A stretch of DNA of 33,107 bases from Thiotrichales bacterium (lineage in GTDB: Bacteria; Pseudomonadota; Gammaproteobacteria; Thiomicrospirales; Thiomicrospiraceae), in contig JAFGXP010000027.1 in assembly GCA_016936535.1 (NCBI GenBank), positions 1-33,107 of the forward strand. The letters are read 5' to 3'. A model generated the notes under the pieces. That model did not search any database. It worked only from the letters and a program-made list of their open reading frames with translations, and was not told the origin of the DNA. The translations under genes and the position numbers were made by a program. Each line of letters opens with the position of its first letter. The first letter of the stretch is position 1. Shown one piece after another: positions 1,884 to 9,271 of this stretch.

Positions 1884-3674
1884 TTATTCGAAGCGAGTCA
1901 CCACAAGCTCGTAGTAGGTGGTCGTACCACTCACTTCGTTGCCAACCACCAACAATGGCTTACCATTAGGACTTTGTTCAGCCGGAACAAACTGCATACC
2001 TTCAGGTCCTAAATCTCCGGCTTGAGCCAATTCGGTTTCAGGGTCTTTCTGCAGGTTGCGATTATTGAAATATTCAATAAATTGAGGGGCGTTTGGGTTG
2101 GAGACATCGTAAACCATAATCCCGCCCATACGCTCTAAACCAATAAAGGCATAGGTGCGACCATCAATTTTGCCAAGGGTGAGGGCCTCTGGCTCTGGGC
2201 CCTTATTATCCGAACGATCATCGCCAGCATTTTCAGCATTATCATTATTAAAGTCCGCGCCATAACGGTTGGCGGTGATCACCTCAAAATCGCTACCCGA
2301 ATCAAACACCTGTTGACCGGTTTGCGCCTCATAAATCGAGAAAGAGCGCCCGCCATAAGCATAAAGGTGGTCAAAGTTGGTTCCGCCATTTTTGACAACC
2401 GTGGTGTGGTACGAAAACTTCAACCGATTTAATTCATTATCTTTACCAAAACCACCATTGGTTACCAAGCCGGAATTCAAGGTGACGTTATCGGCTGCAT
2501 AGTAGTCTTTGGCGGAAAAGGCATCAACACAATTATCTTTTGCATCAAAATAATAACCAGCAGCTTCACATCCTGCCTGGTCGGTGACATTTTCCAACCA
2601 ATCTTGACGGTCATCCCCCTCGTTGGCGGTTAAGAAATAGCTCTTACCTTGATATTCCATGCTGGCAATGGTATCGGGCATATAAATCCCTTTTACTGGC
2701 CAATTGCGGATATTAACCCCATCCTTTTGGCTGGCATCCAACTCATTGCCTGGAATCGAGTGGTCTTTAAACCCGAGACCCAGAATCTGTTCAATGCGCT
2801 TATCGACCAAATCAATGACGGCAACCGCATTATTCTCTTGCAAGGTCACATAGGCTTTGCTGCCAACGGCATTCACCGCAATATATTCTGGTTCGAGACT
2901 TTGTGCCACGCTGGCTTTTGCGTCGGGATTGGTCGCGCTATAGCCGTCTAATACCATCTTGTCCAATGGCAACTCACTATGCTGTGGGCCGCCAAGATTA
3001 AAATCCGTAAAATGCAAGGTGGTCAAATCGGTGGTTAAGTTTGTGCCATCCCACTGCACGCCAATCAAGGCAACCTGTCCTTCAGGATCTACTTGATAAT
3101 CCGTGCTTGGCTCACCTTCAATCGCGACTAAAAGCTGATTGCCGCTAAAGGTCAACATATCCGGCAAAGCACCCACTTGTACTGCTTTTAAAAACCCTAA
3201 ATCTGCCGCACGGTAAAAAGCCACCCAGCCATTATCGGTTTTATTATTCGCGGCCACGGCCACAGCGAGTAGGCCGTCTTTTAACGCCACGGAGTTGGCA
3301 TCACCCACCACGCCTGCAATCTGCGCGCTGCTGAAGTCACTGACTAAGTTCAAGGACGCTTTTAAAACGGGATTTGCTAAATTCTGGTTGTCTAAAACAT
3401 CCACCGTTTTACGGTTGGCATTGACGACAAAGGTTTGACGATTCACCGCGTCATAAGCCACAATTTCTGCCGCCGATTCATCGTAGATGCCTGAGGAAAA
3501 AGTAGCAATAGGCTGCAAACTAATGGCTTGGCTGGTCGCATTGCGGCCATCTAGACCATCGCGTCCGTTAAGACCATCGGTACCCTCATCGCTGAGTTCA
3601 CAGCCTCCAACCAATAAAACAGAACTGCTCAAGAGTGCCGCTAAAAGCGGCTTTTTTAGCAAACGCATAGTCAT
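1884..3674 (-). CDS. Choice-of-anchor I family lipoprotein, predicted phosphate-starvation protein
   Basis: A 596-residue exported beta-propeller-like protein. The N-terminus is a lipoprotein signal: a basic start, a hydrophobic run, then a LVGGC lipobox with Cys25 as the lipidated residue. Five collagen-like Gly-X-Y triplets follow (31-45) and probably act as a linker. The body has repeated propeller blades. The C-terminal part contains GPEPEALTLGKIDGRTYAFI and GGIMVYDVSNP, hallmarks of the choice-of-anchor I family, members of which are often annotated as alkaline phosphatase or found beside 5'-nucleotidase domains. I see no independent phosphatase motif, so the enzymatic role is unproven. 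Start: ATG at 3674, or ATG at 3668 (MRLLKK), which sits at a better distance from AAGGG. Transcription is probably controlled by the Pho-box-like array upstream, which supports a role in phosphate acquisition. Confidence 0.8.
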   Translation of the reverse strand: MTMRLLKKPLLAALLSSSVLLVGGCELSDEGTDGLNGRDGLDGRNATSQAISLQPIATFSSGIYDESAAEIVAYDAVNRQTFVVNANRKTVDVLDNQNLANPVLKASLNLVSDFSSAQIAGVVGDANSVALKDGLLAVAVAANNKTDNGWVAFYRAADLGFLKAVQVGALPDMLTFSGNQLLVAIEGEPSTDYQVDPEGQVALIGVQWDGTNLTTDLTTLHFTDFNLGGPQHSELPLDKMVLDGYSATNPDAKASVAQSLEPEYIAVNAVGSKAYVTLQENNAVAVIDLVDKRIEQILGLGFKDHSIPGNELDASQKDGVNIRNWPVKGIYMPDTIASMEYQGKSYFLTANEGDDRQDWLENVTDQAGCEAAGYYFDAKDNCVDAFSAKDYYAADNVTLNSGLVTNGGFGKDNELNRLKFSYHTTVVKNGGTNFDHLYAYGGRSFSIYEAQTGQQVFDSGSDFEVITANRYGADFNNDNAENAGDDRSDNKGPEPEALTLGKIDGRTYAFIGLERMGGIMVYDVSNPNAPQFIEYFNNRNLQKDPETELAQAGDLGPEGMQFVPAEQSPNGKPLLVVGNEVSGTTTYYELVVTRFE

Positions 3675-3698: not shown

Positions 3699-3765
3699 AT
3701 CTTACGGTAGGAAAATGACGGTTTCTTGAAAGGAAAATGGCAATTTGAAGACAAATTTATGTCAA
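3699..3765 (-). promoter_or_regulatory. Tandem PhoB-box-like array and -10 element
   Basis: Reading the minus strand from 3765, heptamers recur every 11 bases: TTGACAT, TTGTCTT, TTGCCAT, CTTTCAA, CCGTCAT, CTACCGT. AT-rich 4-nt spacers separate them. The first five match the Pho unit CTGTCAT at 5-6 of 7 positions, and the fifth base is C in all six. Ten bases after the CCGTCAT unit lies TAAGAT (3704-3699) as -10. That is the same 10-nt spacing I know from the E. coli phoA promoter, which has no -35. Control by a PhoB-type activator is inferred. Confidence 0.65.
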
Positions 3766-3774
3766 TTCAATGCC

Positions 3775-4209
3775 TTATGTTGGAGAAAAGATTTGCAGCG
3801 GCGAAACGCGCACAGGACGAAAATTTCGATCCGTGGTGACAATCAACGTCCGCGCTTGGCTCATAAGACGATGATCACTTTGTCGAAACAGTTGCTGTTG
3901 AAATTCAAAACGCAGCGGCGTCAGTGGTTTAACCGCCACGTCGATTTGGAAAGGTTGATGGGCTTGCAATGGTACAAAATACTCAATCTCGATTTTTTGC
4001 ACCATCAAATTAATCCCTTCTTTGGCGAGCACGGCAAAATCGATACCGTGTTTTTTTAAAAAGCGATGGCGTGCATGTTCAAAATAGTGCTGGTAGTGGG
4101 CGTTGTTGACCACACCCTGAATATCGCATTCGTGATCTCGCGCCTCCATGCACGGCATCGTCTGCAATGCAAAGGATGGAGGCACATTGGTTTTTTTCTT
4201 GATCGTCAC
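3775..4209 (-). CDS. Hot-dog fold acyl-CoA thioesterase (YbgC/4HBT family)
   Basis: Probably hydrolyses acyl-CoA thioesters in the cytoplasm. The signature is HECDIQGVVNNAHYQHYFEH (residues 26-45 with the start used here). The Asp of the CD pair is the expected catalytic residue and the Y..YFEHAR helix is typical of the 4HBT/YbgC/FadM group. About 145 residues is normal for the family. The start is uncertain: the open frame reaches 4296, inside the upstream transporter gene. I use GTG at 4209 (preceded by GAGTGGG) since it gives family-like length, but TTG 4212 or ATG 4158/4149 are possible. The gene overlaps or abuts the end of the TDT transporter gene (stop at 4232), so the two are probably co-transcribed. 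The substrate cannot be told from sequence. Confidence 0.8.
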   Translation of the reverse strand: MTIKKKTNVPPSFALQTMPCMEARDHECDIQGVVNNAHYQHYFEHARHRFLKKHGIDFAVLAKEGINLMVQKIEIEYFVPLQAHQPFQIDVAVKPLTPLRFEFQQQLFRQSDHRLMSQARTLIVTTDRNFRPVRVSPLQIFSPT

Positions 4210-4231
4210 CAAAACCCACTCACTGTCTGTC

Positions 4232-5197
4232 TTAATGATCGACACAGACTTTTTTATGCATGACTGCCACTGCTGTTTTGTAACCGAGATAAACAATAAA
4301 TAGCGTTAAAAGAGCGTGTAAACCGTAACCAATCCATTGATAAAACATTTGTCCGCTGTAAGTGCTCATCTGATAACTGGCAATGACCATCGCTGCTACA
4401 GGGAAGGTGAAAGCCCACCAAGAAAGTGCGAAATCCAGCTGAACAAACTTAGGCACCGAAACCAACATTAAGAGCGTTACCGCAATCGCGAAGAAATAAA
4501 GAATCATCGCAAATTGGTTTACCTGATGGTCGTTAAGTGCTAAGTAAGAGATAAAACCGACCGCAGGAGGCGCAATAAAGATAAACAAGGTTGGAATCAA
4601 ACGAGCCGGCATTGGTGCATGGAAGATAATCCGGTTAACCAAAATCGACTTGACCACAATCCAAAACACCAAACCAACCGAAAAGAAAAACCAGTTTAAC
4701 TCCAGCGGCGCATGATGAACCCCTGCAATCGGCACAATAATATTACCGACAATCGGAATAAACCAAGCTGGATTGGAATGATCAGGCGTGAAGTGGTCAT
4801 GATGCACCCAGTTATAGAGTACCCAATAGGTAAGCGAAATCTGCAATGCCGCCCCCACTGTCCAGAGCCAATAGGAGAACTGGGTTTGCTCGATGGCGTA
4901 AAAGGCAATGCTTAGCAGCAACATACTAATGCTGATGGCAGGCACAAAGTTCATTTTAACTGGGTGCTTCATTTCCGCTTTGACTGCCGGAAAATGACGG
5001 ATGAGTTTAAGGAGGTAGACCAGACTCAGAATCATCATCAGAACCACAGCCAACCCTAAGTTCAGATAGGCGACCCACGTCAAATCTGGAAAAGGTTTAC
5101 TTAAGTGTAAAAAGGCGATACTCAGACCGGTAATGCCCATAATCATTCCAAAGAAACTGGCAGGAAAATTAGCTAGCCGTTGCGATTGCTCACTCAT
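4232..5197 (-). CDS. TDT/SLAC1-family membrane transporter (TehA-like)
   Basis: An inner-membrane protein of about 321 residues with roughly ten hydrophobic segments. It opens with LANFPASFFGMIMGITGLSI, the characteristic first helix of the tellurite-resistance/dicarboxylate transporter (TDT) and SLAC1 anion-channel family. Members carry anions such as C4-dicarboxylates, malate, sulfite, nitrate or chloride; the substrate here is unknown. I chose ATG 5197 (MSEQSQRLAN) over the GTG at 5212, which would add five residues. No strong Shine-Dalgarno sequence is visible for either. It is first in a pair with the thioesterase gene. Autotrophs sometimes use members of this family for inorganic carbon uptake, but nothing here shows that. 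Confidence 0.85.
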   Translation of the reverse strand: MSEQSQRLANFPASFFGMIMGITGLSIAFLHLSKPFPDLTWVAYLNLGLAVVLMMILSLVYLLKLIRHFPAVKAEMKHPVKMNFVPAISISMLLLSIAFYAIEQTQFSYWLWTVGAALQISLTYWVLYNWVHHDHFTPDHSNPAWFIPIVGNIIVPIAGVHHAPLELNWFFFSVGLVFWIVVKSILVNRIIFHAPMPARLIPTLFIFIAPPAVGFISYLALNDHQVNQFAMILYFFAIAVTLLMLVSVPKFVQLDFALSWWAFTFPVAAMVIASYQMSTYSGQMFYQWIGYGLHALLTLFIVYLGYKTAVAVMHKKVCVDH

Positions 5198-5506: not shown

Positions 5507-6571
5507 TTATAGCGTTTGAGAGAGCGTAGCCTCTTTTGTAAACACAACGGCATGATCCATTTCCAACTTAATGCCAATTTTTGAACCCACAGGGTGATCA
5601 TGGTGTGATTGGCTCATGCACATAACTTTTTCGCCACTGGGTAGCTTGAGGGTAAACAAAAAATGTGATCCTCGAAAGGCACGGTTCACCACTTCGAGTT
5701 TCCAATCACTGCGGTCATCGTGAAGAATATCGTCCGGACGCACCAAAACCGAAACCGCTTCGCCGGCCTGAGTGCCAAGTGGCAGTTGCGTTTTCAGCAA
5801 ACCCAGCTCGGTATGCACCGCTCGACAATCGCAAACACTACCGGTAATCAAGGAGCCTTGACCAATAAAATCCGCAATAAACGGATGCGCTGGCTGGTGG
5901 TAAAGATTGTAGGGAGTATCCCATTGCAACAAACGCCCCTCTTTAAGCACCCCCACCGAATCGGCCATCGCAAAAGCTTCATTTTGGTTATGCGTCACCA
6001 TTAAGGCACTCATGCCTTCGGCTTTAAGGATGCCACGCACTTCACGTGCCAAAGACTCACGCAGCTCCACATCTAAGCCCGAGAAGGGTTCGTCCATCAA
6101 CAAAATCTTGGGCTTGGGAGCCAGCGCCCGCGCCAAAGCAATTCGCTGCTGCTGTCCACCCGAAAGCTGATGAGGAAAGCGCTTCGCCATGGCCGGCAGC
6201 CCCACCAACTCCAGCAGTTGCGCAACCCGCGCTTCTTTTTGCGCACGGCTGTGGCGATGCAAACCGAAGGCAATATTCTGTTCAACGTTTAAATGAGGAT
6301 AAAGGGCATAATCTTGAAACACCATACCAACCTCGCGCTGTTCTGTAGGCACCATCTTCTTAGCCGAAGAAACCACCTGCTGATCAATTTGAATTTCGCC
6401 CTCGGCCAAGGCATGCAAACCCGCAATGGTTCGCAACAAGGTGGTTTTGCCACAGCCGCTGGGGCCAAGCAGACAACCTACCTCGCCAGCTTTAAGCCAA
6501 AGATTGACTTGATTAACGGCAATATGCTCTTGATGCATTGCTTTAACTTGATGTAATCGCAGTTCAGGCAC
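5507..6571 (-). CDS. fbpC: Ferric iron ABC transporter ATP-binding protein
   Basis: A 354-residue ATPase that powers periplasm-to-cytoplasm Fe3+ import with FbpB and FbpA. Walker A GPSGCGKTT (36-44), Q-loop Gln86 in VFQDYALYP, ABC signature LSGGQQQR (136-143), Walker B LLMDEP (157-162), D-loop and H-loop His194 are all intact. After about residue 235 comes a C-terminal TOBE-like regulatory domain (around 240-345), as in FbpC/PotA-type ATPases. The start overlaps the end of fbpB by 8 bases, implying translational coupling. It is the last gene of fbpABC; no clear terminator follows. A related subfamily handles sulfate, molybdate or polyamines, but the FbpA and FbpB neighbours and the Fur-like box favour iron. 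Confidence 0.92.
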   Translation of the reverse strand: MPELRLHQVKAMHQEHIAVNQVNLWLKAGEVGCLLGPSGCGKTTLLRTIAGLHALAEGEIQIDQQVVSSAKKMVPTEQREVGMVFQDYALYPHLNVEQNIAFGLHRHSRAQKEARVAQLLELVGLPAMAKRFPHQLSGGQQQRIALARALAPKPKILLMDEPFSGLDVELRESLAREVRGILKAEGMSALMVTHNQNEAFAMADSVGVLKEGRLLQWDTPYNLYHQPAHPFIADFIGQGSLITGSVCDCRAVHTELGLLKTQLPLGTQAGEAVSVLVRPDDILHDDRSDWKLEVVNRAFRGSHFLFTLKLPSGEKVMCMSQSHHDHPVGSKIGIKLEMDHAVVFTKEATLSQTL

Positions 6572-8189
6572 GTTTCTTATCCATTAACTGACTTAAAAGA
6601 ATGACTGGAATCAGCCCCGTTAACACAATCAACAGCGCAGGCAAACCGGCATCAGCCAGGCGCTCGTCGGCAGCCATTTCATAAGCGCGGATTGAGAGCG
6701 TATCAAAATTAAAAGGGCGCAAAATCAGCGTTGTTGGCAACTCTTTTAACACCTCAACAAACACTAAAATCAACGCCGTGAGCAAGCTGGTTTGCAGTAA
6801 AGGCAGATGAACTTTACGAAGAATGGTACCGGAGGCTAAGCCAAGTGTCCGCGCGGAATCATCCATATTCGGTTTAATTCGCTGCAAACCTGCCTCAACT
6901 GACTGCAAGGCCACCGACATAAAACGCACACTGTAGGCCAAAACCAAGGCAAATAAGGTTCCAGAGAAAATCAACCCAGTGGACACTTCGTAATGATTAT
7001 AGGCAAAGTCGTCTATCACCTTATCCAACCAAGCCAATGGAATCAGTACTGCAATTGCCAAAACGGTTCCCGGTACGGCATAGCCTAAGTGTGTCACGGT
7101 CACCAAGCGGCTAACCGACTTTTGCCGACTTAGGCGCTTCGCATAGGCCAAAATCACCGCCAAACCGACCACCACCAGAGCACTAATTAACGCCAACGAA
7201 AAACTGTTCCAAGCCAACTCAAAGAATTCGCGATTCCACTGGGTATCGGCTGTGGTGAAACTCCAATAAAACAATTGTGCGCTCGGCACTAAAAATCCCA
7301 GTAACAACGGCAGAAAACAGATCGCAAAGAGGCTCCAACCGCGCACACCCTTGAGCTGGGTTAATTCAGTTTCTGTGCTCGGTGTACTTTGTTCAAAATA
7401 GCGCTGTTGCTTGCGTGTCCAACGTTCCACACCAATTAAAAGCGCCACAAATGCTAACAACACCAGCGAAAGCTGTGCCGCAGTATGAGTATCGCCCAAA
7501 CCAGACCAGGTTCGATAGATGCCGGTGGTAAAGGTATCCACCCCAAAATGCTGCACGGCACCAAAATCAGCAAGGGTCTCCATCAGCGCTAAGGTCACAC
7601 CGGCAATAATGGCAGGCCGCGCCATGGGTAACGCAATATAAAAGAAGCGTTTCCAAGGACCGACCCCCAAGGTGCGACTGACTTCCAAGGCGTGATGACC
7701 ACTGGCACTAAACGCACTACGGCTCAATAAATAAACGTACGGATAGAGCACCAGCGAAAACAACAAAATGGCTCCACCGATCGAGCGAATCTCTGGAAAC
7801 CAGCCTAAGGTAGTCTGCCCCGTCAATTCGCGAAACGCCGTTTGAACGGGCCCTTCAAATTCCAGCAGTCCTGTATAGGTGTAAGCACTGATATAGGCTG
7901 GCATCGCCAGCGGCAGAAGCAAAGCCCAATGCAGCCAGCGACTGCCATAAAACCGATAATGCGTGACCAACCAAGCAGTTGAAACCCCAAGCAACAGGGT
8001 GCCAAAGCCCACCCCCAGCATTAACCAGATGGAGTTTAGAACATACTCCGGTAACAGAGTATTCAGCAAATGCTGCCAATTTTCATTGCCCGGTGTAAAA
8101 ACAAAAGAGACCAGCACCCAGATGGGTGTGGTCATCAGCAACGCAATCACAATCGACAGCCAGAGCCAAAGCTTCGGCGTTTTACTCAT
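6564..8189 (-). CDS. fbpB: Ferric iron ABC transporter permease (fused two-domain)
   Basis: A 541-residue inner-membrane permease with about 12 transmembrane helices, made of two homologous halves as in FbpB/SfuB. Each half carries an EAA-type coupling loop for the ATPase: EVSRTLGVGPWKRFFYIALP near residues 175-195, and DDSARTLGLASGTILRKVHL in the second half (about 445-465). METLADFGAVQHFGVDTFTTG after the first loop is a familiar signature of iron permeases of this type. It starts 47 nt after the fbpA stop and overlaps fbpC by 8 nt, so all three form an operon. Substrate specificity comes from FbpA. Confidence 0.92.
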   Translation of the reverse strand: MSKTPKLWLWLSIVIALLMTTPIWVLVSFVFTPGNENWQHLLNTLLPEYVLNSIWLMLGVGFGTLLLGVSTAWLVTHYRFYGSRWLHWALLLPLAMPAYISAYTYTGLLEFEGPVQTAFRELTGQTTLGWFPEIRSIGGAILLFSLVLYPYVYLLSRSAFSASGHHALEVSRTLGVGPWKRFFYIALPMARPAIIAGVTLALMETLADFGAVQHFGVDTFTTGIYRTWSGLGDTHTAAQLSLVLLAFVALLIGVERWTRKQQRYFEQSTPSTETELTQLKGVRGWSLFAICFLPLLLGFLVPSAQLFYWSFTTADTQWNREFFELAWNSFSLALISALVVVGLAVILAYAKRLSRQKSVSRLVTVTHLGYAVPGTVLAIAVLIPLAWLDKVIDDFAYNHYEVSTGLIFSGTLFALVLAYSVRFMSVALQSVEAGLQRIKPNMDDSARTLGLASGTILRKVHLPLLQTSLLTALILVFVEVLKELPTTLILRPFNFDTLSIRAYEMAADERLADAGLPALLIVLTGLIPVILLSQLMDKKRA

Positions 8190-8236
8190 CCGTTTTTCGT
8201 CAAGCGCTCCCTTAATAAATGGCGCAACACTTTACC

Positions 8237-9271
8237 TTATCGCCAATCGGCTCGGTCCATTATTTTGACCGCTTGTGGATTGAGTTCACCCAGTTTGGAT
8301 AAATTTAAACGATCACTTTTGAACTCGCCCCAAGACTGCAAGGTGGCACTGATTGGCGTGCCCTCCACAACCGGATACTCATTATTTGTTTCGGCATACC
8401 AGTTTTGTGCGGTTTTTGACAGCATAAAAGCAATCAACTTATTCGCATTTTCGACATTTTTGGCCGATTGAGTAATGGCGATGCCACTGACATTAACATG
8501 GGTACCGCGATCTTCTTGGTTTGGCCAGAACACCGCAACTTGGTTGGCCGCATCACGCTGCGCCGGATCATTGCCATTTAACATCTGCGCCAAATAATAA
8601 GTATTCACCAAGGCTACATCACACATGCCTGCCGCAACCGCCATCACCTGATCACGATCACCACCTTTTGGATTGCGCGCAAAATTCTTCACAAATCCCT
8701 TTGCCCAAAGTTCGGTTTTTTCAGCACCTTGATGCGCAATCATCGATGCGACCAAAGATTGGTTATAGATATTATTGGACGAACGCACACAAATTCTGCC
8801 ACTCCATTTTGGATCGGCCAAGTCTTCATAGGTCGAAAGTGCCTCGGGTTTAACGCTGTCTTTGGCATACACCAAAACTCGCGCACGCGTTGTCAACCCC
8901 AACCAGTAACCCTCTTTATCCTGCAAACTCGGCGAAACTTGCGACAGTAATTCAGCTGAAATCGCCGCTTGCAACACTCCCGCTTCTTTCGCACGATGCA
9001 AACGGCCAGCATCGGTGGTAATCAACACATCGGCAGGTGAGCGTCGCCCTTCCGATTCAAGGCGTTTCAGCAATTCATCTGCTTTGCTGGTAATCAAATT
9101 CACCTGAATATTGGTTTGCTGAGTAAACTCATCCAGCAACGGCTTAATTAATTGTGCCTGTCGAGCAGAATAGACATTCACTTCTTCAACCGCCTGGGCC
9201 GCACTGAGGGGCAACAGCGAAGCCGCTCCAATTAGCAGGATTTTGAACAAGGTTTGTGTTGCTTTACTCAT
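8237..9271 (-). CDS. fbpA: Fe(3+) ABC transporter periplasmic binding protein
   Basis: A 344-residue periplasmic protein that binds ferric iron and delivers it to FbpBC. It has a Sec signal peptide (KILLIGAASLLPLSAAQA) with likely cleavage after Ala27. The mature protein begins VEEVNVYSARQ, typical of FbpA/FutA/IdiA. The adjacent tyrosines Tyr225-Tyr226 in LVNTYYLAQ are the expected iron ligands, and Tyr34 in VYSAR may also contribute. GAGGG lies at good distance before the ATG. First gene of the fbpABC operon; a Fur-like box overlaps its promoter, so induction by iron starvation is predicted. Confidence 0.93.
   Translation of the reverse strand: MSKATQTLFKILLIGAASLLPLSAAQAVEEVNVYSARQAQLIKPLLDEFTQQTNIQVNLITSKADELLKRLESEGRRSPADVLITTDAGRLHRAKEAGVLQAAISAELLSQVSPSLQDKEGYWLGLTTRARVLVYAKDSVKPEALSTYEDLADPKWSGRICVRSSNNIYNQSLVASMIAHQGAEKTELWAKGFVKNFARNPKGGDRDQVMAVAAGMCDVALVNTYYLAQMLNGNDPAQRDAANQVAVFWPNQEDRGTHVNVSGIAITQSAKNVENANKLIAFMLSKTAQNWYAETNNEYPVVEGTPISATLQSWGEFKSDRLNLSKLGELNPQAVKIMDRADWR

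Follow-up and report, generated by a model that had tools for sequence, protein, structure and literature searches.

The direct repeats that precede a lipoprotein gene in a member of the Thiomicrospiraceae (Thiotrichales bacterium, contig JAFGXP010000027.1; the whole stretch of 33,107 nucleotides analysed here is referred to as the window) are very probably a phosphate-starvation switch, that is, a Pho promoter in front of a surface lipoprotein, and for the encoded protein, a member of the choice-of-anchor I family, a role as a PhoA-aty-like atypical phosphatase is most likely. Taken jointly, activation by PhoB of a gene for an atypical, PhoA-like phosphatase with a propeller fold is the reading that we consider probable from the sequences. 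The promoter type is already known; the useful part is the target gene and its family link. Together, the Pho switch and the kinship to the "PhoA" of some viruses that infect marine cyanobacteria give a poorly known family a likely phosphate-gathering job.

Results

A predicted Pho-box array upstream of the lipoprotein gene

The original prediction, made from the letters of the window, comprised six heptamers at an exact spacing of 11 bases. The spacing and five of the units stand (Table 1), with the claimed agreement of 5 to 6 of 7 positions with CTGTCAT. The sixth, CTACCGT, agrees at four positions and runs through the 10-bp spacer into the -10 hexamer, whose first base it shares; when a four-unit register is moved one unit on so that this heptamer is included (the -10 moves too), the score drops from 18.0 to 2.9. 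The array is best read as five units followed by a -10: CTACCGT is probably not a PhoB unit, and an array of six functional units was rejected. The fifth base is C in all six heptamers, as had been read from the sequence. The TAAGAT hexamer was also placed correctly, 10 bases past the fifth unit, a gap that proved optimal in the controls described below, and we likewise find no -35 hexamer at the usual place, where, by eye, AAGAAA (3727-3722) is the hexamer that a 17-bp spacer would select. The lipoprotein gene starts 24 bases after the -10. On the other side, a thioesterase gene on the same strand as the lipoprotein gene has its stop codon nine bases short of the array.

Table 1. Features of the putative Pho promoter, its surroundings and related sites (positions refer to the window unless a contig, C, or locus, L, is named)
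Feature	Position	Strand	Basis or remark
Predicted Pho-box array, five heptamers at 11-bp spacing	3715..3765	minus	sequence reading and matrix scan; also a three-unit pattern match
Heptamer 1, TTGACAT	3765-3759	minus	5/7 match to CTGTCAT
Heptamer 2, TTGTCTT	3754-3748	minus	5/7 match to CTGTCAT
Heptamer 3, TTGCCAT	3743-3737	minus	5/7 match to CTGTCAT
Heptamer 4, CTTTCAA	3732-3726	minus	5/7 match to CTGTCAT
Heptamer 5, CCGTCAT	3721-3715	minus	6/7 match to CTGTCAT
"Sixth heptamer", CTACCGT	3710-3704	minus	4/7 match; overlaps spacer and -10
-10 hexamer, TAAGAT	3704-3699	minus	exactly 10 bp after heptamer 5
Choice-of-anchor I lipoprotein gene, 596 aa	1884..3674	minus	PF22494, NF038117; alternative ATG at 3668
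YbgC/FadM-like thioesterase gene, upstream of the array	3775-4296	minus	
PhoX-like lipoprotein array	L123 1747-1813 (G000 C25)		gene from 1842 or 1851
Three-unit pattern match, pstS	C45:66154		
Three-unit pattern match, glnA-pstC gap	C45:56263		
Three-unit pattern match, lipoprotein-like gene	C21:111778		

A scan with a Pho-box matrix, proposed along with the original prediction, bears it out. The training set of the matrix comprised only 14 pstS promoters, including one of the window's own genome, and excluded all choice-of-anchor I promoters. These 14 are the pstS-type loci, among 19 from 17 genomes, that reached a consensus score threshold of 22 (the pstS-type loci of G029, G032 and G041 and the second loci of G025 and G050 fell below it and were left out); in each, four heptamers spaced by 11 bp are followed, 10 bp after the last, by a -10-like hexamer, most commonly TATAAT. 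Position 4 is T and position 6 is A in every one of the 56 training units; the T is missing from two of the window's five units and the A from one. The window site scores 18.0, compared with -23.5 ± 6.6 for dinucleotide shuffles, none of which (0 of 400) reaches it, and no other site on either strand of the window scores as high, the best unrelated one having -2.4. In the complete 2.12-Mb genome, a three-unit pattern with up to three mismatches yielded five matches at four places (Table 1), and the reversed control pattern yielded one.

The spacing was examined by varying the period from 8 to 14 and the gap to the -10 from 6 to 14 (63 combinations) over 12 upstream regions, that of the window and those of its relatives. 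Period 11 with gap 10 is the clear optimum (mean best score 12.1); other gaps at period 11 give at most 5.8, and all other periods (8-10 and 12-14) stay below -15. The class-level, locus-wide and neighbour-gene scans reported below relied on this matrix too, but with a pseudocount larger than that of the 12-region and period/gap scans, so that scores differ slightly between the two sets.

Conservation in the family and in the class

A choice-of-anchor I protein is encoded in 13 of the 62 genomes of the family; named relatives with the gene are Thiomicrorhabdus marina, T. heinhorstiae and, with a fragment, a Hydrogenovibrio assembly. Twelve upstream regions were usable, the window included; G034, a fragment with a 193-aa open frame and no 5' end, was left out, and G050 contributes its upstream region only. 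In the latter genome the gene occupies two overlapping frames (C8:75133-76840), yet a strong array stands upstream of it.

In most of these genomes the heptamers are kept together with the gene, the opposite of the loss that would have counted against the original prediction: nine of the 12 regions (eight of 11 without the window) score above all 400 shuffles, two have weak arrays (G027, p 0.015; G023, p 0.037; 400 shuffles each) and one is not significant (G032, p 0.12, also against 400 shuffles). Identity to the window in the 11 other genomes is 36-71% for heptamers and 23-55% for spacers, the heptamers being the more window-like in 10 of the 11 (barely so in G027, 0.57/0.55; equal in G032, 0.36/0.36). 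The commonest bases over 48 units of the 12 genomes spell CTGTCAT (25, 28, 27, 38, 34, 45 and 25 of 48 for the seven positions). In 10 of the 12 loci the upstream region is also the top scorer, the exceptions being G032 and G027; in G027 a second Pho array scores higher. It precedes the following gene, which has the same orientation as the choice-of-anchor I gene and encodes a 5'-nucleotidase/metallophosphoesterase. G032 encodes a full-length PhoX about 5 kb from its choice-of-anchor I gene; no clear Pho array was found before this PhoX gene (best score -3.4).

A wider survey covered 369 genomes drawn from the class, which we take to be Gammaproteobacteria. Among them, 114 match NF038117, 31 over its cut-off. 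Nine of 29 class-level loci are individually significant at p ≤ 0.015 (mononucleotide shuffles). The period and gap test used 20 of the 29, the other nine having cut, long or doubtful starts, and period 11 with gap 10 again gave the highest mean, here of 35 combinations with two and three units. The count of 15 of 20 over class-level loci is a generous one, as coding sequence makes up most of the background and, of two p-values, the more favourable was used. The class-level optimum and the nine individual loci are signs that Pho control may extend past the family, albeit not in every genome.

Choice-of-anchor I-like parts also occur in longer open frames: several of ~740-860 aa were seen, at locus L126 (2119-4281) and among the weaker class matches, and in the single protein examined, which comes from a different record, such a part is accompanied by a Phytase-like domain (PF13449).

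PhoB and the putative Pho regulon of the window's genome

The reading of the array as a Pho promoter gains from the gene content of the genome, which encodes PhoB (313.8 bits, over the cut-off), PhoR, PhoU and a PstC-type Pst permease, with phoB between phoU and phoR and near the permease gene. All 17 genomes searched have a PhoB that scores over the cut-off; in the window's genome the PhoB model has 19 matches in total. The pstS promoter of this genome has the same architecture as the window array. The pstS gene (L092 12400-15218) lies apart from the block of Pst permease, phoU, phoB and phoR genes and is divergent from a PHO4-family transporter gene.

Another five-unit array, one unit of which is weak, with TAAGAT at 10 bp, precedes a gene for a divergent PhoX-type lipoprotein (61.4 bits) on C25 of the same genome. 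Classical PhoA (PF00245) was not found in this genome, and two of the 62 family genomes have one. Two more sites deserve mention. At C21:111778-111833 (L093 7778-7833), four Pho-box units, followed at 10 bp by TAGCAT, precede the gene of P0004, a 361-aa lipoprotein-like protein that consists of two similar repeats, has no informative Pfam match and is a candidate member of the Pho regulon. At C45:56263-56291 (L092 4263-4291), a three-unit array lies between glnA and the Pst permease gene, on the strand pointing to glnA and away from the pst genes, and no good -10 is present at 10 bp from it. The window itself also carries, at 5507-9271, ABC transporter genes related to importers of 2-aminoethylphosphonate, iron and thiamine; none of the window's eight best sites is an array belonging to them, and we do not count this transporter as part of the Pho system here.

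The lipoprotein and its relationship to cyanophage PhoA

The gene downstream of the array was correctly identified in the original prediction as one for a choice-of-anchor I lipoprotein: the protein matches NF038117 with 498.7 bits (cut-off 300) and PF22494 with 341.2 bits (cut-off 32) over the full domain, and a lipobox-like LLVGGC is visible by eye near the N-terminus. An AlphaFold model based on four sequences is a beta-propeller of modest quality (pLDDT 63.6, pTM 0.71). The best 50 of 1,406 Foldseek matches in the PDB are mostly other propellers (WD40, LGI1 and YVTN proteins), with no phosphatase by title among these 50; the fold thus indicates a beta-propeller and says nothing on catalysis. 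When the family profile was searched against PDB sequences, four matches were obtained, of which an archaeal surface-layer protein was the best and none was a phosphatase. Homology to PhoX was considered and rejected, PF05787 being absent among the Pfam matches of the lipoprotein and an hhalign comparison with the PhoX-like protein aligning only 26 N-terminal columns.

The most informative relatives come from phages. A tblastn search against phage records found nine records, all from Synechococcus phages and annotated as alkaline phosphatase or phoA; in the two that were examined, S-SM2 and Sf-CH8, the phoA gene follows the gene of the phosphate-binding protein (pstS). These cyanophage proteins (420 or 418 aa, 29-30% identity) are homologous over most of their length: profile comparison with the family gives a probability of 99.9 and an E-value of 4.9e-33 over 352 columns, and PF22494 is matched with 64 bits, above its gathering score of 32, although the scores against NF038117, 145.8 and 150.6 bits, are under the cut-off of 300. 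Forty-eight columns are invariant in an alignment of the two phage proteins with 18 bacterial ones (18 of 22 bacterial rows; L015, L017, L019 and L021 were left out), and many of these hold Asp, Glu, Arg or Lys, including E70, D172, E186, E188, E261, E263, E280, D334, E352, D354, R443, D458, K491, E494, E496, E514, R515, E558 and E580. Such a set would fit a metal-binding active site. Through cyanophage PhoA, the lipoprotein has homology to proteins that bear the name PhoA and are unlike E. coli PhoA, as would be expected of a putative PhoA-aty. The genome of S. elongatus, used as a control, has a match to NF038117. Among viral contigs, 41 stretches matched a pattern, none of them a relative of the lipoprotein.

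The literature searched does not contain the name "choice-of-anchor I", either alone or tied to phosphate. PhoA-aty is characterized, in passages of PMC4548154, by conserved Asp and Glu motifs and by relatives in cyanobacteria, proteobacteria, algae and marine animals, and bacterial MSP130 genes are reported in part of PMC4536745; further literature on PhoA-aty and MSP130 is PMC6156274 and PMC4237138. Synechocystis PhoA (sll0654), likened here by name, rises with phosphatase activity at low phosphate according to a section of PMC3600050. As for the phages, portions of PMC5083919 describe cyanophage phoA as regulated by PhoR/PhoB, dissimilar to bacterial phoA and of a function that is not clear, and portions of PMC10976474 treat phage phoA as a putative alkaline phosphatase gene present only in phages with pstS and call Pho-box prediction in phage genomes unreliable.

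Discussion

The sequences show the array, its geometry and conservation, the presence of PhoB and PhoR and the homology to cyanophage PhoA, and they identify the array as a Pho promoter about as firmly as sequence data can; from them we infer binding by PhoB, a response to phosphate, phosphatase activity, bound metals and placement in the cell envelope. By analogy with E. coli, phosphate starvation would lead PhoR to phosphorylate PhoB, which would then occupy the 11-bp repeats head to tail; with the last repeat over the -35 region, PhoB could help RNA polymerase to use the TAAGAT -10. The choice-of-anchor I lipoprotein would thus be switched on under starvation and, as a PhoA-aty-like beta-propeller with metal-binding acidic residues and a putative alkaline phosphatase, might free phosphate from organic phosphate for uptake by the Pst transporter. 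The job in phosphate scavenging that the original prediction proposed gains independent, albeit sequence-level, support from the cyanophage PhoA homology and from the adjoining 5'-nucleotidase gene with its Pho box in G027.

Chance or low-complexity AT-rich sequence has a negligible probability as the source of the repeats: the units match the consensus at only 5-6 of 7 positions and three relatives are weak, but the 400 shuffles, the period and gap controls and the greater likeness to the window of heptamers than of spacers in 10 of 11 genomes (with G027 barely so and G032 equal) refute this explanation as far as sequence can. It is also quite improbable that the array is bound by another regulator of the OmpR family. 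Several such regulators use direct repeats with 11-bp spacing, the 19 matches to the PhoB model mean that other family members exist in this genome, and the window units deviate at positions 4 and 6; however, the site was scored by a matrix built from pstS promoters only, the units of the 12 genomes together spell CTGTCAT, and neighbours and homologues concern phosphate.

A different kind of alternative accepts the array as a true PhoB target and has the lipoprotein bind phosphate, organic phosphate or calcium at the surface, or serve as a non-catalytic helper. This we regard as unlikely. The family name that is missing from the searched literature, the surface-layer protein that leads the PDB profile matches, with no phosphatase among the four, and the function called unclear for cyanophage phoA in the portions of PMC5083919 cited above all speak for it, whereas the many acidic and basic residues that are invariant from cyanophages to this genus, as would be expected in an active site, and the phage relative annotated phoA beside pstS speak against it.

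With an atypical phosphatase under Pho control as the preferred reading, a broader proposal can be made tentatively: choice-of-anchor I proteins, cyanophage PhoA, algal PhoA-aty and perhaps animal MSP130 could form one family of propeller metallophosphatases of Pho-regulon origin, so that the Pfam/NCBI name would hide a widespread alkaline phosphatase. This is a possible reading, still in some doubt, and is suggested by the Pho arrays that precede the genes in the family and in some other class members. The preferred reading gives a family named only for its varied anchors a likely role in phosphate scavenging and links it to a candidate regulator, a defined promoter and an assay that can be run directly; if this reading is right, the family would escape surveys of alkaline phosphatases in which only PhoA, PhoX and PhoD are counted.

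Comparison with known systems

The phoA and pstS genes of E. coli have PhoB-dependent Pho-box promoters. The window array has in common with these promoters, and with those of the pstS genes of its own and related genomes, 7-bp direct repeats at 11-bp spacing, the last unit in the place of the -35 and the -10 at 10 bp; it differs from the pstS promoters, which have four stronger units, in having five weaker ones, and from classical Pho promoters in its target, a lipoprotein gene that is not among the classical ones. Choice-of-anchor I and MSP130 are presumably named in one wider family. It is by this name that the MSP130 proteins of animal biomineralisation, the subject of passages in PMC4536745, are likened to the lipoprotein, and the likeness to PhoA-aty follows the description in parts of PMC4548154. 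PhoX (PF05787) and Psip1, the latter a propeller requiring Fe and Ca according to excerpts of PMC11098088, are by literature beta-propellers encoded by phosphate-starvation genes; PhoX differs in that no sequence homology with the lipoprotein was detected, and Psip1 is set beside it by description. Cyanophage PhoA of S-SM2 and Sf-CH8 differs from the lipoprotein in its low identity, its shorter chain and its score under the NF038117 cut-off, though above that of Pfam, and is nevertheless its homologue, sharing the 48 invariant columns and encoded beside pstS.
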